IMG/VR virus record: IMGVR_UViG_3300027754_000069
Location: 18,689-82,688 of that record
Length of the DNA: 64,000 nt
From: a virus
Direction: 5' to 3' (one strand)
The translations under genes were made by a program, and so were the position numbers. The notes below the pieces were generated by a model that did no database searches, was not told the origin of the DNA, and was given only the letters and a program-made list of their open reading frames with translations. Shown here in pieces: positions 1,181 to 57,000 of the stretch. The first letter of the stretch is position 1. Each line of letters begins with the position of its first letter.

Positions 1181-2938
1181 TTATGCTGGTATTTGACGAG
1201 TTACTCTTGCTGCAAGATTTGGGTTTCCACCGCCAGTTAGACCTGCAAGAAGTTCTTGCATTGCTGGACGTTGTTGTTGGAATTCTGGCGCACCCGCGCC
1301 ACCCATACCCTGTTCTGGACCTGCGCCCATTCCAGATGCTTCTGGCATCTGAGGTTGTGCTGGTTCTGGCTTGAACGCTTTGGCAACCGCGTCTTCTAAC
1401 GAGGTACCCTTTTTACGTTCGGCAATAACTGCAGCCATTTTTTCAACAATCTTCATTGGGTCTTGACCTTGCATTACCATTTGTGGAATTGCTTGAGCCA
1501 TTGATGCAACTGACGCCTTGAGGGAGTCACGCATCTCTTCAATATCAATTGCTCGCTCTTCTTCTCCAGCATTGAGCGAAATCGGTAGATTGCGACGTAG
1601 CATCCCACGAGAGATTAGCTTGTCACCACGAGCTTGTAGACCCCAGACAAGTGCTCGGTTAGGGTCTAGACCTGCCATTAATCCGTATTCAACAGTAACT
1701 CCATAGTTACCTATGATGTCAGATGATGGCTTGTACTTTAACTTGTATGGAACTCCATTTGCTGTAGCAGATACTTCACGTGTTATGTTCTCGAAGAATG
1801 CTTCGTCTGTAGCAAATGCTAGTGAAATTGCTTGACCAATTGCTTCGCCAAGTACTGATTGAATAACTTTAATCTGTGAATCAAATCCAGCCATAAGTGC
1901 CTTGACACCTTGACCAGTAACGATAGAACCTTCAGCTTGACCTGCACGTGCCTGTGGGAAACGAGTTCCCAACTTCATTTCATCGGCTAGGACATTGTTT
2001 TCCGCAAACGCGAACTGAGGTACATCCAGATTAATACGACGAATTTTCTCAGGGGAGTTAGAACGAATAACTGAATCAGGACCAACGGAAAGCTGAGTAA
2101 CGTCATTAGGCAAAGCAAGAGGAGCTTCAACAGATTTTTGGACAGCTTCCATAGTAAGGAGAGCCAAACGTGCTTTCGCCGCGTAGACTGGTAGTACGTC
2201 GTCGAATGACCCTCGGACTTCGCCATCAAGCGAAGGACGCTGAGCAATTGCAACTGGGACTTTACCGATTTTGTTTTCTGTTTGTGCAAGTACTATTCCT
2301 CCACGTTCTGGAATAAACATGACTGTTTGCTTCTTGTCTGACCAACGTACAACTTCAAGTAGCTGGTTGCTATCTCCACGAGAGAATGCACCTGTTTGTA
2401 GAATTTGATTAGCGTACTCAGGGAACTGAGCTGCTAAATCTCCCGCCTTACGATAGTAAGAACGAGCATAAACTTGGACATCGCCAAATCTATCAACGTC
2501 ATAGTATGCACCCATGGAATTTTCAACATGGATGTGAGGACGTTTTTCTTTAAAGTTAGGTTCTACACGGAATACAACAAATCCGTATGTTGCCAACTGG
2601 TCTGCGCCACGCAGTAGTTCCGTTCCAAGACGAGATGATGCTACGTAGTAATTAGCAATCTTAGTTCTCTTGTCAGCCTTGGTACGCTGGTTATCATCGA
2701 GAGATGAATCGCCAGCAGCAGTAATGGTAGGTAGAACACCAGCTTGCTCAGATACATCACGAGCTACAACGTCGATAAGGTTAGCAATAATTGGTCGTGA
2801 CCAATTTCCTTCTGGAAGCAACCCTTTGAATACTTGGTCTGCTTGTCCAGCACGAACTAAGGCAACATCGCGCATGCGCCTGTCGCGCTCGGAGTTTCTA
2901 GCTTTTAACTGTTCAAAAGCTTGTACAAGTTCTTTCAT
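1181..2938 (-). CDS. Portal protein (left unit)
   Basis: 585 residues. It follows the terminase directly and is nearly collinear with the middle-unit protein at 41966-43732. Size, position and a disordered Gln/Pro/Gly-rich C-terminal tail (about residues 520-585) fit a phage portal, the dodecameric ring at the capsid vertex that DNA passes through. The start MKELVQAFEQL is chosen because the other copy shares it. The shared end NPNLAARVTRQIPA marks the same C-terminus in both. The portal call rests on position, size and overall character; no family-specific motif was checked. Confidence 0.8.
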   Translation of the reverse strand: MKELVQAFEQLKARNSERDRRMRDVALVRAGQADQVFKGLLPEGNWSRPIIANLIDVVARDVSEQAGVLPTITAAGDSSLDDNQRTKADKRTKIANYYVASSRLGTELLRGADQLATYGFVVFRVEPNFKEKRPHIHVENSMGAYYDVDRFGDVQVYARSYYRKAGDLAAQFPEYANQILQTGAFSRGDSNQLLEVVRWSDKKQTVMFIPERGGIVLAQTENKIGKVPVAIAQRPSLDGEVRGSFDDVLPVYAAKARLALLTMEAVQKSVEAPLALPNDVTQLSVGPDSVIRSNSPEKIRRINLDVPQFAFAENNVLADEMKLGTRFPQARAGQAEGSIVTGQGVKALMAGFDSQIKVIQSVLGEAIGQAISLAFATDEAFFENITREVSATANGVPYKLKYKPSSDIIGNYGVTVEYGLMAGLDPNRALVWGLQARGDKLISRGMLRRNLPISLNAGEEERAIDIEEMRDSLKASVASMAQAIPQMVMQGQDPMKIVEKMAAVIAERKKGTSLEDAVAKAFKPEPAQPQMPEASGMGAGPEQGMGGAGAPEFQQQRPAMQELLAGLTGGGNPNLAARVTRQIPA

Positions 2939-13454: not shown

Positions 13455-14102
13455 CTAATCGTCTAGTGCATTAATCAATGCTGTTAATGCTTGAGCTCCT
13501 TGGTCAGCAATTATACTATTGATATCAGAATCAGGCGGTAACGACACGCGCATGGCTTGAGGTATTGCATCTACTAATCTGCGAGCCAAGTCCTGTCCTG
13601 GATTAGAACCATCTTCTTTAACATCGTTATCTGTGGCTACAATTACTCTACCTATGCCATCAAAACAACGTGAGAAATAAGGCTTCCAAGCGTTAACGCC
13701 AGCAACAGCGACAGCAGGATGCCCAGCAAGAGTAGCAGATATCGCATCAATCTCTCCTTCAACTATTAATACCTCCCTTACAGCATGAATGATTGCGTTG
13801 ACATTATATAGATGGTGCTTCTGACCAGTAGGTATCATGTACTTAGGGTCACCATCATCAATCCGACGGAACTTGAACCCGACAACACCAGCATTAGTAA
13901 TATACGGAATAGATAAATGCTTTTTAATTCTGTCTTCATGACCAGCAGCAGGTTCTTCCACGTAGCCCAACAGGAATTGTTGGGCGCCAGCAAGGATGCC
14001 ACGCTTCTCAAGGTACGCCTCAGCTGGTGAACCAGCCAAAGAATTATGATAGGTGTGTGCTGCCTTTGTCCAGAGTTCAATGAGCTTAGGATTGGTTCTC
14101 AC
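13455..14102 (-). CDS. Toprim-domain DNA primase (catalytic part)
   Basis: 215 residues. Toprim motifs: LIVEGEIDA at 112-120 with the catalytic Glu, and VATDND at 155-160 with the acidic pair. A substrate-recognition stretch GFKFRRIDDGDPKYM precedes them. It lacks a zinc finger; that domain is encoded separately at 14626-14958, with the Ntn-hydrolase gene between. Start is GTG overlapping the upstream stop (GTGA). Right-unit homologue 55503-56150. Makes primers for replication together with the helicase 16545-17378. Confidence 0.88.
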   Translation of the reverse strand: MRTNPKLIELWTKAAHTYHNSLAGSPAEAYLEKRGILAGAQQFLLGYVEEPAAGHEDRIKKHLSIPYITNAGVVGFKFRRIDDGDPKYMIPTGQKHHLYNVNAIIHAVREVLIVEGEIDAISATLAGHPAVAVAGVNAWKPYFSRCFDGIGRVIVATDNDVKEDGSNPGQDLARRLVDAIPQAMRVSLPPDSDINSIIADQGAQALTALINALDD

Positions 14103-14629
14103 TTCTTCTCCTGTCTATGTGTAATGAATGGAGGCGCAGTATACACATCATTACGAGCAGCAATCTGCATTGCTTGCTTCCATGTTGCCCCGCCTGCCAG
14201 TGCGCCAAGAGCCCATGATGAGCCAGACCCTATCCCATACAGACCATCGTCACGCAGGTATACAGAATAGTTATCATCTACTTGGTAGATGGTGCCGTTG
14301 ATTGCTAATAAAAATTCAAACCCAGCATCCTCGTCATCCTTACTTGGGGTATAGCCAGAATCTTTGATGCACTCTCTCATGCTAGGTACAACTGTTGTAA
14401 TCATAAAATGATATTCATCTTTAATGTTAGCTGGGATAGTTGGTGGTTTCCACACGTGCTGCATCACATCGCATGGTTGTACGTCACCAGCACCAGCAAC
14501 CAACCACTTGCCACGTTTAGTTATCTTAGTAACTATCGGATGCGAGAATGGTCTACCGCCTGCGGTAGTACGTGAGTCGGCTGCAAATATGCAGCCGTTG
14601 TCTTGTTGGATACCAATGATAGTTGTCAC
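14099..14629 (-). CDS. HslV/proteasome-beta-like Ntn-hydrolase
   Basis: Predicted 176 residues from a GTG at 14629 that forms a GTGA overlap with the primase zinc-domain stop. This start gives Met-Thr-Thr-Ile-Ile-Gly, so removing Met exposes Thr1, as in HslV. Counting from Thr1, Asp17 is exactly in the AADSRTT motif, Lys34 is near the usual Lys33, GSGSS is at 133-137 and D-V-Y-T at 160-163. All match the catalytic layout of the 20S/HslV family. The longer frame from 14659 would add ten residues as a propeptide but is not conserved. Partner ATPase not found. Role unknown; self-assembling protease or amidase is possible. Confidence 0.85.
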   Translation of the reverse strand: MTTIIGIQQDNGCIFAADSRTTAGGRPFSHPIVTKITKRGKWLVAGAGDVQPCDVMQHVWKPPTIPANIKDEYHFMITTVVPSMRECIKDSGYTPSKDDEDAGFEFLLAINGTIYQVDDNYSVYLRDDGLYGIGSGSSWALGALAGGATWKQAMQIAARNDVYTAPPFITHRQEKK

Positions 14630-14958
14630 AGTGAAGCCCTCAATCTTGGTGGCGTCCAACGCCCACTTGACTTCTTACGTCCACGAGTTGGAGCAGACTG
14701 CTGTGATTCCTTGCCAATGTTTTTCTCTGCCCACTTACGAGCTTCTGGGTATGTTAGCTTCTCACGAGCCATGATTATCTGTATACCAGAACCACTTCCG
14801 CTACATGCATAACATACCCAGACGCCCTTGTCTGAGTTTACTGAAGCAGACTTACGTGAGTCGTCATGTACAGGACACAAGATTGATTTCTCCCCGCCAA
14901 GTGGCAAGGTCAATCCGTAATGACTGAAGACTGCTTCTAAAAACTCAGACTGATTCAT
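14626..14958 (-). CDS. Primase zinc-binding domain protein
   Basis: 110 residues with a CHC2-type zinc site: C28-P-V-H31 and C49-Y-A-C52, the N-terminal domain of DnaG-type primases. The Toprim part is absent and lies two genes downstream. C-terminus is basic. Right-unit copy 56674-57000 (GTG start). Presumably acts in trans with the Toprim protein at 13455-14102 to find template sites. Confidence 0.85.
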   Translation of the reverse strand: MNQSEFLEAVFSHYGLTLPLGGEKSILCPVHDDSRKSASVNSDKGVWVCYACSGSGSGIQIIMAREKLTYPEARKWAEKNIGKESQQSAPTRGRKKSSGRWTPPRLRASL

Positions 14959-16169: not shown

Positions 16170-16554
16170 TCTTTAATTCTTTCATCACATCTAATAGGTT
16201 CTCTACCGTAATCAGATAGCCCTTGCTTCTATTCGGTGGTATCTCACAAGTAATCTCTCGACCAAACTTTTTAATTGCATACAACACATGACCAGTTGGA
16301 ACCATGAGCACACCACGTTCAAGTACGAACGCCCAGTATGCAGCTTTAGTTACCATCACACCTGACGGTTCCCAATTCTGGGAACGTCGATACCAGCATT
16401 CAACTTCTATATATAGGTTATTGGTTGACCACCATTTGCGGTCACGTTTAACTTCTACTGTGCCACCTTCGGTCAGTAGTTGATTTACTAGTGACTCGCC
16501 TTCTTGACCAAATCTAAAATCTAAATCAAATGACGATAGATTTTCTACTGCCAT
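16162..16554 (-). CDS. Possible PD-(D/E)XK nuclease-like protein
   Basis: 130 residues. An N-terminal helix with GQEGE, then GTVEVKRDRKWWSTNNLYIEVEC, which has the spacing of a PD-(D/E)XK core (acidic, E-V-K, then E-V-E). In the right unit the same slot holds an unrelated-looking 173-residue protein with an IQVKTST core (58005-58526). Function as nuclease is inferred from these motifs. Confidence 0.5.
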   Translation of the reverse strand: MAVENLSSFDLDFRFGQEGESLVNQLLTEGGTVEVKRDRKWWSTNNLYIEVECWYRRSQNWEPSGVMVTKAAYWAFVLERGVLMVPTGHVLYAIKKFGREITCEIPPNRSKGYLITVENLLDVMKELKND

Positions 16555-17378
16555 TGCGATAACGTTCTTGCTCTATGTAAATCAGATGGAGAGTTGTAAA
16601 GAACCATCTTGCTTGCTTCCGCCGATAAAGTTACATAGCTTTCTGCAGTTGGGTCTGCCTTGCCATGTCTGTTCTTTACAACAGCAACTCGATAATTAGA
16701 GGAAGCACTATCCAGAGCCACCGAAAGGACCAACTCTGGTAGTGCTGCCACCTTACCCATCAATGCTTTACGTGGTGCTGGGTAGTTCGGCTTAGACATC
16801 TTCTCATTCTCGGAAACGTGGTGCAGGACGATGAATGCCGATTCATACTCACGAGCCATGTAGTGAAACGCTGACATGGCATCGCGTAGTGCAGTCCACT
16901 CGTTATCACTTGCGGATGCTACGTTCATTAAGTTGTCTACATATACAGCAGTAGGTGCCGAACCATGCAATTCAATCCACGCTTCTATCTCCTCTTCAAT
17001 GTCTTGAAGAGAAGGTGCTGGGTCGAACGCGAATCGTACATGGTCGGCACCTTCCGCTAGCGCATCCTCAAGGAGAACGCTTGCTTCGGTATCCATCAAT
17101 CTTTCTACATCAGCAACATCTTTATTCATAAGTATTGCACCAGCGCGAGTAGCGATGGTACGTGAATCAGAGTCAGCTGATATATATAACGACGGAACCT
17201 TAGATGTAATTGCGTACCATAATGCAAGTAGTGTCTTACCTCCGCCTGGTTGACCAGCGACCAAATGCAATTGCGCTTGGCGAAAGACAACTTGACTGGC
17301 TGTGAGTTGAGGCAGGATTTCTGGTAGTTGATGACCAACTGGTGACTCGACACCCACTACTTGCAAGAGGCTACGCAC
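16545..17378 (-). CDS. RecA-fold replicative helicase/ATPase (DnaB/RepA-like)
   Basis: 277 residues: Walker A GQPGGGKT at 42-49, Walker B AVYVDNL near 142-148, and a later FIVLHHVSENEK sensor-like segment with conserved His. Resembles RepA/DnaB-type hexameric ATPases lacking the N-terminal domain. Starts with GTG overlapping the upstream TAG. Right-unit copy 58517-59350 begins with ATG. Works with the split primase in replication. Confidence 0.82.
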   Translation of the reverse strand: MRSLLQVVGVESPVGHQLPEILPQLTASQVVFRQAQLHLVAGQPGGGKTLLALWYAITSKVPSLYISADSDSRTIATRAGAILMNKDVADVERLMDTEASVLLEDALAEGADHVRFAFDPAPSLQDIEEEIEAWIELHGSAPTAVYVDNLMNVASASDNEWTALRDAMSAFHYMAREYESAFIVLHHVSENEKMSKPNYPAPRKALMGKVAALPELVLSVALDSASSNYRVAVVKNRHGKADPTAESYVTLSAEASKMVLYNSPSDLHRARTLSQWQ

Positions 17379-19044: not shown

Positions 19045-19080
19045 GAAATAAAAAAAGAGGGGGACCATTAAGTCCCCCTC
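19045..19080 (-). terminator. Terminator after the structural/lysis operon
   Basis: On the minus strand GAGGGGGAC, loop TTAATG, GTCCCCCTC, then TTTTTTTATTT. It follows the gene 19093-19311 and separates it from the replication operon. Same element at 61214-61247. Confidence 0.88.
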
Positions 19081-19092
19081 CTCTTCTATCTC

Positions 19093-21741: not shown

Positions 21742-21941
21742 TCACGATTCTTTCCAGCTACTAGTTCATACAGGCTGTCAACACGAAGTTCTAATCTATC
21801 GAGTGAGTCACGCATCGAGCTGCCTGAATTTGGTTTCAATTCTGTGAGGTAGTGTTTTACTAACCAACGAACTGAGCCAGCAAAGCTGGCAACTATTGTG
21901 GCAGTGGCAACAGCCAAGCCAGCCCATTCGTTGGTAGACAT
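21738..21941 (-). CDS. Holin-like membrane protein 1
   Basis: 67 residues: one hydrophobic helix (WAGLAVATATIVASFAGSVRWLV, about 6-28) and a charged C-terminal helix with RDSLDRLELRVDSLYELV, likely coiled-coil. Overlaps the endolysin start by four bases. The right-unit copy begins at 63891 and leaves the window; the shared 99 bases are identical. Confidence 0.65.
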   Translation of the reverse strand: MSTNEWAGLAVATATIVASFAGSVRWLVKHYLTELKPNSGSSMRDSLDRLELRVDSLYELVAGKNRE

Positions 21942-22129
21942 TATTCTGCTCCGCGTCCGAAGTCTGTTGAAGATCCGTCAAGCCACTTAAGAACTGGACC
22001 AAGGAACCCTGTTAGAGCTGCTGTTCCCAGAACCTTAAGGTCCGTCTGACCAGCAAGATAAAGTGCGACAGCAGCAGATGCTGCTGCACGGAACCAAGAT
22101 AATGCTATTGCTTGAAACTTTGCGTTCAT
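21941..22129 (-). CDS. Holin-like membrane protein 2 (r1t-type)
   Basis: 62 residues with two short hydrophobic segments (AIALSWFRAAASAAVALYLAG and VLGTAALTGFLGPVLKWL), resembling small r1t-type holins of actinophages. ATG overlaps the next gene's start region. Together with the neighbour it probably forms the membrane-lesion pair for lysis. Confidence 0.65.
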   Translation of the reverse strand: MNAKFQAIALSWFRAAASAAVALYLAGQTDLKVLGTAALTGFLGPVLKWLDGSSTDFGRGAE

Positions 22130-39747: not shown

Positions 39748-41226
39748 CTACTTTCTTGAAGCTTCGTATGCTTTCGCTGCTTTAGATCCTGGTACATATG
39801 GAACTGGACCTGTATACATTGGCTTAGGAGCTGGCTTGTTATTAGGGATCTTCACTGTTGTGTTTCGATAAATCTTGCGAGGATCTTTAATTTTCTTATT
39901 AGCTGCTAGTAACTCTGAAAGAGTTACGCCAGCCTTCTTAGCAATACCTGAAAGTGTGTCACCGTGTTCAACTTTGTAATCAGTAGTTGTTCCACCAGGA
40001 CCGATCTTAAGACCTTTACCGCCACCCTTTGGATACGCACCTGCTGGACGCTTAGGCAATGCTGTTAGACCTGCAGCTGCTGCTGCAGTTGTCTTTCCTT
40101 TTAATCCACCTGGAACTGCACGACCATAAGATGCGTTAGTCATCTTATCTTCACGACCGCGACCAAATGGCTTTCCTGAATTGATCATGTCCCAAGTTGT
40201 GCGATCCTTGGTATCTTTGCTTAATGCTTTATGAATAGGACCTGCAGCAAGAGATGCTGCTGTAATTGCAAGACCGACTTTACCGCCAGTTGCTTTCCAT
40301 GCGCCTTTACCAATTGCACGTGCAACTGTGCCTGCAGTAACTTTCTTAGCTGCTGACTTAGCACCAGTTGTAGCAACTGTGCCTGCGCCCTTCTTTGCAA
40401 CTACTGCAGGAAGGTTAGGTGTTCCGCCTTTAGCAATACGAACCGCTTCGCCCTTTGACTTACCTGACGCAACCGCTGCCTTGTACCTATCAACTTCTGC
40501 TGCTGTCTTAAGTTCACCTGCTGCTGCAACACCTGTTTTAATTTTTGGTGTTGTTACTGTTGGCTTAGTTGTTGTTGGCTTAGCTGTTGTTGTGCCTCTT
40601 GTTGCTGCCCAGTTCTTACGTTCTGCTGGTGTCATCTTTGCCCATGCTGCTTTATTAGCAGCAGACTTTTCTGCACGAGTTACGCCAGGCTTCTTAACGC
40701 CAGGCTTTGGCGAGAATCCCTTGTTAACCTTTGGAGGTTTATTTGGCGGTGTTTGACCACCACCTGCAGCAGCAACCTTTGGTTTAGGTTTTGATATTGT
40801 TTCAGCGGTTCCAGAAACTGGACGAGTTGTCAACTTCTTCTTTGATTTTGGTTTTGGCTTCTCTGGTTTAGCTGCAGCAGGTGCTGTTGCTTTAGCAGGA
40901 GCAGATTTAGCTGCTGCTGCATCTTCTTTTGCATACATGCGATCAACTGCAGCTCTAGCCTCACGGCGATCACGAGCAATTCGCTCTTGTGCTGTTTCAG
41001 TTGGCTTACTAAATACTTTATTTCCGCGATCATCGGTAATGTAACCTGCCTTGGCTTCTTTCTTTACTTCTGAAAGAACTGCCTTATCTTCTGCAGATAC
41101 TTTTGCCATAGGGTCACGGCGTACCGCCTTGGTCTTTCTACTTGTGAAAGCTCCCTTGGCATCGGCTACAGCAGCTTTACGCGCCTGCTTAAACTTCTTC
41201 GGAGCTTTTGGTTTCTTTGCTGCCAT
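39748..41226 (-). CDS. Basic Ala/Lys-rich protein with C-terminal LysM
   Basis: 492 residues. N-terminal 200 residues are strongly basic and low complexity (many KPKP, AAAK). A block near AAWAKMTPAERKNWAATRG is shared with the left-unit partial gene 1-667. A hydrophobic Gly/Ala segment (about 305-320) is followed by the LysM domain DYKVEHGDTLSGIAKKAGVTLSELLAANKKI near the end. Possible cell-wall-binding virion protein; the basic arm could bind DNA. Confidence 0.68.
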   Translation of the reverse strand: MAAKKPKAPKKFKQARKAAVADAKGAFTSRKTKAVRRDPMAKVSAEDKAVLSEVKKEAKAGYITDDRGNKVFSKPTETAQERIARDRREARAAVDRMYAKEDAAAAKSAPAKATAPAAAKPEKPKPKSKKKLTTRPVSGTAETISKPKPKVAAAGGGQTPPNKPPKVNKGFSPKPGVKKPGVTRAEKSAANKAAWAKMTPAERKNWAATRGTTTAKPTTTKPTVTTPKIKTGVAAAGELKTAAEVDRYKAAVASGKSKGEAVRIAKGGTPNLPAVVAKKGAGTVATTGAKSAAKKVTAGTVARAIGKGAWKATGGKVGLAITAASLAAGPIHKALSKDTKDRTTWDMINSGKPFGRGREDKMTNASYGRAVPGGLKGKTTAAAAAGLTALPKRPAGAYPKGGGKGLKIGPGGTTTDYKVEHGDTLSGIAKKAGVTLSELLAANKKIKDPRKIYRNTTVKIPNNKPAPKPMYTGPVPYVPGSKAAKAYEASRK

Positions 41227-55502: not shown

Positions 55503-56150
55503 TCAGTTGTTAATTGCATTAACTAAATCAGCTAATGCTTGCGCTCCTTGGTTGACAATTATACTATTAACATCGCTATCTGGCGGTAGCGACACGCGGA
55601 CAGCTTGAGGGATTGCATCCTGCAATCGACGAGCAAGTTCCTGCCCTGGATTAGAGCCATCCTCTTTAGCATCGTTGTCAGTACAGATTACAACAGTGCC
55701 AATCCCATCAAAACACCTACTAAAATAAGGCTTCCAAGCATTGACGCCAGCAACGGCAACCGCTGGGAACCCAGCAAGAGTCGCACTAATCGCATCTATT
55801 TCTCCCTCTACTACTAGCACTTGGCTAACTGCATTAACTATTGCACTGACATTGTATAGGTGGTGCTTCTGACCAGTAGGTATCATGTACTTAGGATCCC
55901 CGCCATCAATGCGACGGAACTTAAACCCAACTACACCAGCCTCTGTTATATAGGGGATGGATAGGTGATGCTTAAGTCTGTCCTCATGACCAGGTGCTAC
56001 CTCGGCTACGTAACCTAGCAAAAATTTTTCGGCTCCATCAAGGATGCCACGTTGTGTTAGGTACGCCTCTGCTGGTGAACCAGCAAGGCTGTTGTGGTAC
56101 TGATGTGCTGCTTTAGTCCAGAGATCTATGAGTTTGGGATTAGTCTTCAT
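55503..56150 (-). CDS. Toprim-domain DNA primase (catalytic part), right unit
   Basis: 215 residues, VLVVEGEIDA and TDND motifs as in 13455-14102. ATG overlaps the Ntn-hydrolase stop (ATGA). Confidence 0.88.
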   Translation of the reverse strand: MKTNPKLIDLWTKAAHQYHNSLAGSPAEAYLTQRGILDGAEKFLLGYVAEVAPGHEDRLKHHLSIPYITEAGVVGFKFRRIDGGDPKYMIPTGQKHHLYNVSAIVNAVSQVLVVEGEIDAISATLAGFPAVAVAGVNAWKPYFSRCFDGIGTVVICTDNDAKEDGSNPGQELARRLQDAIPQAVRVSLPPDSDVNSIIVNQGAQALADLVNAINN

Positions 56151-56677
56151 ACTTTCTCCTGCCTGTGCGTAATGAATGGAGGTGCAGTGTATACATCATT
56201 GCGAGCAGCAATCTGCATTGCTTGTTTCCATGTTGCACCACCCGCTAGTGCGCCTAGTGCAAAGCTTGACCCTGACCCTACGCCATACAGCCCATCATCA
56301 CGTAAGTATACAGAATAAGAATCATCTACTTGGTAGATAGTTCCATTGATTGCAAGTATAAACTCAAACCCAGCATCTGCATCATCCTTATCTGGTACAT
56401 ACCCTGACTCCTTGATGCAATCTCTTATGCTTGGTGCAACAGTTGTAATCATAAAGTGATACATGTCTTTGATGTTAGCTGGTATAGCTGGCGGTTTCCA
56501 CACATGTTGTATCACATCACATGGTTGCACATCACCAGCACCAGCAATTAACCACTTACCCCGCTTGCTAATCTTAGTAACAATTGGATGTGAGTATGGT
56601 CTGTTCATTGCAGTGGTGCGTGAATCGGCTGCAAGAATGCAGCCGTTGTCTTGTTGGATACCAATAATTGTTGTCAT
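56147..56677 (-). CDS. HslV/proteasome-beta-like Ntn-hydrolase, right unit
   Basis: 176 residues from the ATG at 56677, which forms ATGA with the primase zinc-domain stop, giving Met-Thr-Thr-Ile-Ile-Gly. Asp17 and Lys34 counted from Thr1, GSGSSFALGAL and the late DVYT are all kept. The residues upstream of this Met differ from the middle unit, while from here on the proteins align tightly, which fixes the start. Confidence 0.85.
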   Translation of the reverse strand: MTTIIGIQQDNGCILAADSRTTAMNRPYSHPIVTKISKRGKWLIAGAGDVQPCDVIQHVWKPPAIPANIKDMYHFMITTVAPSIRDCIKESGYVPDKDDADAGFEFILAINGTIYQVDDSYSVYLRDDGLYGVGSGSSFALGALAGGATWKQAMQIAARNDVYTAPPFITHRQEKV

Positions 56678-57000
56678 CGAGATCGTAACCTTGGTGGTGT
56701 CCACCGCCCACTCTTCTTACTGCGACGATTGTGAACAATCGGAGTAGAAGATTCTTTGCCAATATTTTTTTCAGCCCATGACCGAGCTTCTGGGTATGCT
56801 AAATGTTCACGTGCCATGATGATCTGTATACCAGAACCACCAGCAGCACATGCATAGCATACCCAGACGCCCTTGTCTGAGTTAACTGAAGCAGATTTAC
56901 GAGAGTCGTCATGCACTGGACAGAGAATAGACTTCTCACCTTGCGGTAAGTCCAATCCATAATGATTAAAGACTGCTTCAAGAAACTCAGGCTGGTTCAC
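56674..57000 (-). CDS. Primase zinc-binding domain protein, right unit
   Basis: 108 residues with CPVHDD and CYAC as in 14626-14958. GTG start abutting the transglycosylase stop. Confidence 0.85.
   Translation of the reverse strand: MNQPEFLEAVFNHYGLDLPQGEKSILCPVHDDSRKSASVNSDKGVWVCYACAAGGSGIQIIMAREHLAYPEARSWAEKNIGKESSTPIVHNRRSKKSGRWTPPRLRSR

Follow-up and report, generated by a model that had tools for sequence, protein, structure and literature searches.

A predicted proteasome-like peptidase of freshwater phages, encoded between two primase half-genes

Why would a phage keep a gene for a proteasome-like peptidase between the two halves of its primase, and what would the product do? The question is raised by the window, a stretch of 64,000 nucleotides analyzed here from the 82.7-kb IMG/VR record IMGVR_UViG_3300027754_000069, which holds two copies of such an Ntn peptidase gene, copy 1 at 14099..14629 (minus strand; 176 aa, GTG start) and copy 2 at 56147..56677 (minus strand; ATG start) in a second phage genome. 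Aligned over 175 residues, the two proteins agree at 154 (88%). The minus-strand frame of copy 1 opens GTG-ACA-ACT at 14629, giving (M)TTIIGIQQDNGCIFAADSR..., the protein of copy 2 also opens (M)TT, and the Ntn start codon shares 4 nt with the stop of the upstream gene. A first-pass annotation of this DNA had described the overlap of start and stop, followed by Thr-Thr, in both copies, and the frames and coordinates bear it out.

The predicted fold is that of a proteasome subunit. An AlphaFold2 model built from 37 sequences (pLDDT 92.5, pTM 0.89) has the strand and helix order of such a subunit, with helices H1-H4 present (H2 at residues 72-90), the C-terminal H5 absent and no helix before residue 50. 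Foldseek returned 1011 PDB chains at E <= 0.001, of which the first were BPH, followed by HslV, Anbu and 20S beta, with BPH 5ovs at the top (E 1.8e-10, TM 0.78 by query length). VIA-align gave Z 18.6 for BPH (2.4 A over 159 residues) and Z 18.3 for HslV, which is a tie because rows within 1 Z do not rank the two. Residue 2 of the model aligned to residue 1 of the BPH and HslV chains, which places the threonine after the initiator methionine on Thr1. The first-pass annotation had called the protein an Ntn hydrolase and had named structure prediction against HslV and 20S beta as the check; the model returned the alpha-beta-beta-alpha, proteasome-type Ntn fold.

Profile searches agree on the family and divide over its closest named member. 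PHROG 1040 ("peptidase HslV family") matches residues 2-175 of copy 1 (E 3e-26) and residues 1-174 of copy 2 (E 1.4e-28), at profile positions 14-158 of 277, and it matched all seven other proteins scanned, two from plasmids and five from phages (E7, DSL-LC01, Vibrio 166E36-1, Microbacterium Pumpernickel and Arthrobacter Hum25). The 22.4-bit cut-off of the Pfam model PF00227 (Proteasome), a model threshold and no structural feature, was narrowly missed by copy 1 (P0001, 19.4 bits) and copy 2 (P0002, 22.3 bits); among relatives, L053 (25.5) and L059 (24.1) lie above it and L054 (18.0) below. With P0001 as a single phmmer query against the PDB, proteasome beta came first (E 0.0028), followed by HslV (0.017) and BPH (0.019); with a profile of 37 family sequences, BPH came first (E 3e-10) and then HslV (2e-8). 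The best NCBIfam model for the window protein is archaeal beta, a weak match far under its equivalog cut-off; at E <= 0.01, HslV models pick up 34 of 37 relatives and archaeal beta picks up 30. The HslV model TIGR03692 scores the two copies at 14.8 and 14.5 bits against an equivalog cut-off of 157.75, and no HslU was found in the phage. The HslV-like label given at first pass does not extend to HslV proper, which is rejected on this score. None of three proteins scanned with PADLOC matched a defence protein.

The residues expected of an active site are conserved throughout the family. From 203 proteins, all of which have [MVL]T[TC] within their first 40 residues, we obtained 123 distinct rows by removing identical rows and those shorter than 140 aa; the set includes both window copies and the INPHARED proteins fetched as loci. 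Rows began at [MVL]T[TC], with an Asp at +17 preferred where a choice existed, so that the invariance of Thr1 (codon ACA directly after the start Met, 14624..14626, minus strand; Thr in 123/123) and of Asp17 (14576..14578, minus strand; Asp in 123/123) is partly built in, and that of Lys34 and of the glycines is independent. Lys34 (14525..14527, minus strand), which is the family Lys33 one residue later, is Lys in 123/123 rows, Gly47 is kept in 122/123, and both glycines of the GSGSS motif (14216..14230, minus strand) in 123/123, the first Ser being Ser in 98, Thr in 24 and Cys in 1. The DVYT motif (14138..14149, minus strand) is possibly the counterpart of Asp166/Ser169; its Thr is found in 119 of the 123 rows and its Asp position holds 83 Asp, 27 Asn, 10 Ser, 2 Thr and 1 gap. 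Counting from Thr1, the earlier placement of Asp17 and Lys34 was correct, and the GSGSS and DVYT motifs that it reported are both present in the window protein. Nei-Gojobori counts over 36 pairs from nine window-type genes gave dN/dS of 0.025-0.123, with some dS values near saturation (up to 2.76), and the Ntn gene is under strong purifying selection. A chance pattern match, considered as an explanation of the resemblance, is ruled out by profile, structure and conservation.

Starts were examined in loci with their surroundings. The best 80 of 364, 80 of 144, 80 of 281 and 80 of 599 matches were kept in the respective scans, and dropping duplicates and loci without a profile hit reduced 204 loci to 175 and finally to 157; counts of starts and gene addresses use 150 of these 157, excluding INPHARED loci and L185 (broken frame). 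A longer frame is formally possible in the window (10 extra residues in copy 1, 9 in copy 2), and an alternative upstream start is kept in 24 of 72 window-type loci. In 126 of the 150 viral loci, an in-frame stop stands ahead of any upstream start codon, which leaves no space for a propeptide there and, by blocking longer frames, identifies Met-Thr-Thr as the conserved start; the earlier claim that no propeptide is made thus holds in most loci. In a separate, unanchored count, [MV]TT stands at the N-terminus of 49/49 viral-contig relatives that reach it, the fiftieth locus (L052), which has no N-terminus, being left out.

One of the phages that carry a relative is in culture. IMG/VR yielded 364 confirmed relatives in one scan and 144 in another, between which overlap is possible. 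In INPHARED, P0001 matches best OX376640 ("Caudovirales sp. ct2KA10 ... LanE43-AprE7", 39,112 bp), which we take as the cultured Planktophila phage E7; its homologue, itself a member of the window clade, has 178 aa and is 41.6% identical to the window protein, that of E7's sister phage is 40.4% identical and the next listed 32.5%. Only 12 of the 41 INPHARED records listed reach E <= 1e-3, and many of the remainder are chance matches. E7 is described as a phage of "Ca. Planktophila", an actinobacterium of the "Ca. Nanopelagicales," in the available text of Kavagutti et al. (2023, PMC10202952). It shares with the window phages the terminase (46%), portal (42%), capsid, a scaffold-like protein, a DnaB-like helicase, the TOPRIM primase and others. 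The first window phage encodes WhiB (53 bits), a mark of actinophages according to the same text, and the hosts of the window phages presumably belong to the same order as that of E7. Pattern scans of bacterial genome contigs confirmed 0/18 and 0/89 homologues, these scans depending on near-exact short stretches that distant homologues could escape.

The 82.7-kb record itself consists of two related phage genomes of about 40.5 and 42.2 kb. Its bases 1-88 recur exactly at the middle junction (window 21749-21947, record 40437-40635) and its last 99 bases (82590-82688) just ahead of that junction. These exact repeats indicate that the two units are probably two phages, not a tandem prophage, and the genomes, circularly permuted, were probably joined in assembly via a shared stretch. 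The window portal has 29 relatives in Streptomyces phages (39.7-42.1%), of which the two examined are Beephvirinae; freshwater acI-type phages and Streptomyces Beephvirinae have homologous portals (window 1181-2938, L369, L370) and a similar annotated layout with a giant protein of ~1640 aa, DnaB, primase, WhiB and sigma-like genes, and the two groups look like one extended lineage.

In the tree, the window clade forms a branch of its own (35 rows, support 98/98) with an inner order only partly resolved; long-branch warnings concern E. coli HslV and, among the phage rows, several that lie beyond this clade. Four plasmid proteins group with one Moorella and one Vibrio phage protein in a separate clade (100/96). 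These plasmid relatives, from rhizobial plasmids and one Streptomyces plasmid (L373:3001-3546, L371:3001-3546, L376:2001-2564, L372:3001-3543), are all annotated as hypothetical, L371 and L372 match PHROG 1040, and the relative on a Sinorhizobium fredii plasmid sits between nifQ and Fe-S/nifS genes. A rhizobial query returned 182 records, among them Salmonella, Escherichia and Vibrio phages, and annotated members in Microbacterium and Arthrobacter phages are called "protease." Some relatives carry C-terminal extensions, of ~150 aa in Vibrio phage 166E36-1 and as a Lys/Arg-rich tail in DSL-LC01 (L058:5001-5984, L054:6001-6690). A nucleic-acid-binding tail was considered for both and set aside, as neither has a significant Pfam domain; the Vibrio 166E36-1 tail matches phrog_2130, a family without an assigned function.

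In both window genomes, the Ntn gene is set between the halves of a DnaG-type primase. Upstream of copy 1 lies the CHC2 zinc-finger half (14626..14958, minus strand; PF01807, 43.9 bits; phrog_360), whose stop overlaps the Ntn start, and downstream the TOPRIM half (13455..14102, minus strand; PF13362, 35 bits; phrog_47), whose start overlaps the Ntn stop. The second genome has its zinc-finger half at 56674..57000 (minus strand), assigned by likeness and position to 14626-14958, and its TOPRIM half at 55503..56150 (minus strand); the TOPRIM halves of both copies match the TOPRIM gene of E7. Overlapped at start and stop by both primase halves, the Ntn gene is probably translated together with them in the window phages. 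A promoter scan around the operon was uninformative (13 found against 15.8 expected); a strong terminator-like hairpin with a T-rich tail is located at 19046-19092 (minus strand), inside the replication gene block. In the Streptomyces phage Kumquat (Beephvirinae), the zinc-finger and TOPRIM genes are annotated as overlapping each other by 149 nt (L369:29919-30795), with no gene between them; a misplaced start or a frameshift could account for the overlap. Most simply, the freshwater line would have acquired the Ntn gene by insertion between two such adjoining halves.

This address is not general. Across the 150 viral loci, the Ntn gene follows the zinc-finger half in 72 (with the 4-nt overlap of stop and start in 64 of these), the portal directly in 66 (the arrangement of E7 and its kind) and the TOPRIM half in 7, and is elsewhere or cut in 5; all three addresses fall within the one supported clade of 35 rows. 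The first-pass statement that the gene sits between two primase genes is accurate for the window and, family-wide, describes one of three addresses.

Searches for a partner were made with two AAA families. PF00004 and PF07724 have no match in the 82.7-kb record, and AAA_2 (PF07724, the HslU family) has none in 18/18 phage records. AAA matches occur in 6 of the 18, four of them above the cut-off, and since all six, in E7 and five other records, fall within the DnaB-like helicase gene, no AAA+ unfoldase was found in these records with the two families searched. The earlier remark that no ATPase partner is coded nearby accordingly stands for AAA+ unfoldases across the record; a DnaB-like helicase is present at 16545-17378. 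The protein has an acid-rich loop after helix H2 (14318..14359, minus strand), which the alignment and model, without superposition of a ring, put near the position of the BPH pore loop; this segment (residues 91-104) has 14-18 residues in 122 of the 123 rows, and Asp and Glu make up 30% of it compared with 11% overall.

Taken together, we consider the protein to be probably a BPH-like, ATPase-independent, ring-forming threonine peptidase of group I that is used in infection, the ring, the activity, the independence of ATP and the role being drawn by analogy. Methionine aminopeptidase takes off Met ahead of Thr, and the host enzyme would thus expose Thr1. Identical subunits would stack into two rings that enclose the active sites, in the manner of BPH and HslV. 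With no unfoldase detected in the phage and an acid-rich loop predicted at the pore, the ring may act without an ATPase on proteins that are unfolded or specifically recognized. As an accessory infection gene, it would clip or clear proteins of the host or the phage inside infected cells and would not be needed for building particles; in the window phages it would be made together with both primase halves. Weighing against a BPH-like peptidase are the variable counterpart of Asp166 (83 Asp of 123), the single-sequence search, in which the nearest names are 20S beta and not BPH, the tie of BPH and HslV in VIA-align, and the near miss of both window proteins at the PF00227 cut-off. Moreover, BPH showed no activity toward casein or standard peptides in the available text of its description (PMC5777263), and an intact active site is therefore no proof of protease activity.

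The same findings have been weighed against other uses of such a subunit. That no unfoldase was found in the phage would also suit a protein that docks on the host's 20S alpha ring or on a host unfoldase (Mpa/ARC, ClpX/ClpC) and so redirects or blocks host proteolysis, and the proximity of proteasome beta in the single-sequence search and the 30 of 37 relatives matching archaeal beta (34 for HslV) point in that direction. We regard docking as unlikely, however, given that the closest structures by profile and by fold are group I rings without alpha subunits.

The inertness of BPH on standard protease substrates (PMC5777263, available text) also invites the idea that the protein is an acylase, an amidase or a peptide ligase and not a protease, and connectase, a member of the same superfamily, is a protein ligase (PMC8665760, available text). 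Connectase carries a two-helix insertion between strands S3 and S4 according to the same text, and the model, with no helix before residue 50, has no insertion of this type; its compact group I fold makes a nonprotease function improbable.

The address after the portal in many relatives raises a further candidate, a head-maturation or virion protease that cuts scaffold, portal or internal virion proteins. The slot after the portal is often occupied by a maturation protease, and an S78 prohead protease, the family searched, was found in none of 21 records. Among 80 E7-type portal loci, the Ntn gene is next to the portal in 65 and one gene later in 1; 4 loci end too early to judge, and the remaining 10 lack the gene, with the slot closed and the following gene starting within 4-11 nt. 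Of the 17 window-type records that reach 31 kb (all such records among the 80 listed), 16 match PHROG 1040, as do 13/13 of at least 39 kb; the single miss, a 31-kb record, is probably a fragment. The family was absent from 3 of 10 E7-type records (39.9, 37.5 and 30.5 kb), which have no Ntn gene anywhere, and from 2/2 Beephvirinae searched, whose portal is homologous; the E7-type sample comprised 10 of the 11 records that reach 30 kb, and the one left out, L336, is the contig of locus L149, which has the gene. These absences indicate that the gene is dispensable in the wider group, and in window-type phages it lies among replication genes. An essential head-maturation protease was set aside on the clean absences at portal loci and in whole records, and any head or virion role is in our view quite improbable; the better reading is that of an accessory gene kept by selection in most lines.

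A passenger gene without function for the phage, which the varying genome position and occasional loss might suggest, is hardly tenable given the dN/dS of 0.025-0.123, the invariant catalytic residues and the presence of the gene in 13/13 long window-type records.

More tentatively, and with somewhat less than even confidence, we suggest that freshwater actinophages may carry a self-compartmentalizing, ATP-independent proteasome of their own, a homo-oligomeric threonine-protease barrel active upon removal of Met, which would act within infected cells by degrading or processing particular proteins of host or phage. The persistence of the gene while it changes between replication and head operons would then tie its job to infection and to neither module.

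In the main texts of open-licence PMC papers, we found none naming the window branch. The main text of the E7 paper (PMC10202952) contains none of the words "protease," "peptidase," "proteasome" or "HslV"; it mentions genes for the breakdown of host proteins, so its supplement may name the Ntn gene. Elsewhere, CDS-113 of Alteromonas phage V22 is annotated "Proteasome-like" in the available text of PMC7289586, a likeness by annotation; the available text of the JSS1_004 paper (PMC12345140) mentions only host hslV, and that of PMC6802176 recognizes actinophages by whiB and mentions no protease. The branch is common in IMG/VR contigs, shows strong conservation and has a member in a cultured phage, and its value lies in this conservation, its moving address, its natural absences and the cultured phage-host pair.

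Among known systems, the window protein resembles in organization the group I homologs (AAH, PPH, CPH), which in the available text of Fuchs, Alva, Lupas (2021, PMC8665760) have a compact subunit with H1-H4, no H5 and no propeptide; it shares H1-H4 without H5, the missing propeptide, a phage-borne gene and the lack of a detected AAA+ partner. According to that text, PPH and AAH are proteasome homologs carried by phages, for which no function, genomic context or AAA+ partner is known. PPH is ~140 aa long without H2, whereas the window protein has 176 aa and H2 and so does not belong there. As for AAH, the plasmid proteins of rhizobia and Streptomyces, which we take to be AAH, fall outside the window clade, and Fuchs et al. 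could find, in the same text, no Actinobacteria-specific phage with AAH, whereas the window branch is carried by actinophages. BPH (Thiobacillus, Cupriavidus; 5ovs/5ovt/5ovu) lacks a propeptide and forms a heptameric double ring with an elongated acidic pore loop, and no ATPase partner was found for it (PMC5777263, available text). It is alike in Thr1 without a propeptide, in the lack of a detected ATPase partner and, by predicted place, in the acid-rich loop; it differs in identity (21-24%) and in being a bacterial and not a phage gene, and the window protein, modelled as a single chain, would form a comparable ring. HslV (ClpQ) is alike in length, in the (M)-Thr-Thr start of the E. coli protein and in fold, and differs in its profile score, with no HslU found in the phage, as detailed above. 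The phage-borne kind is thus already known (Fuchs 2021; PHROG 1040), and the window branch and its genomic context look new; with relatives that have and lack the gene and a cultured "Ca. Planktophila" phage-host pair, the function of phage proteasome homologs becomes testable.
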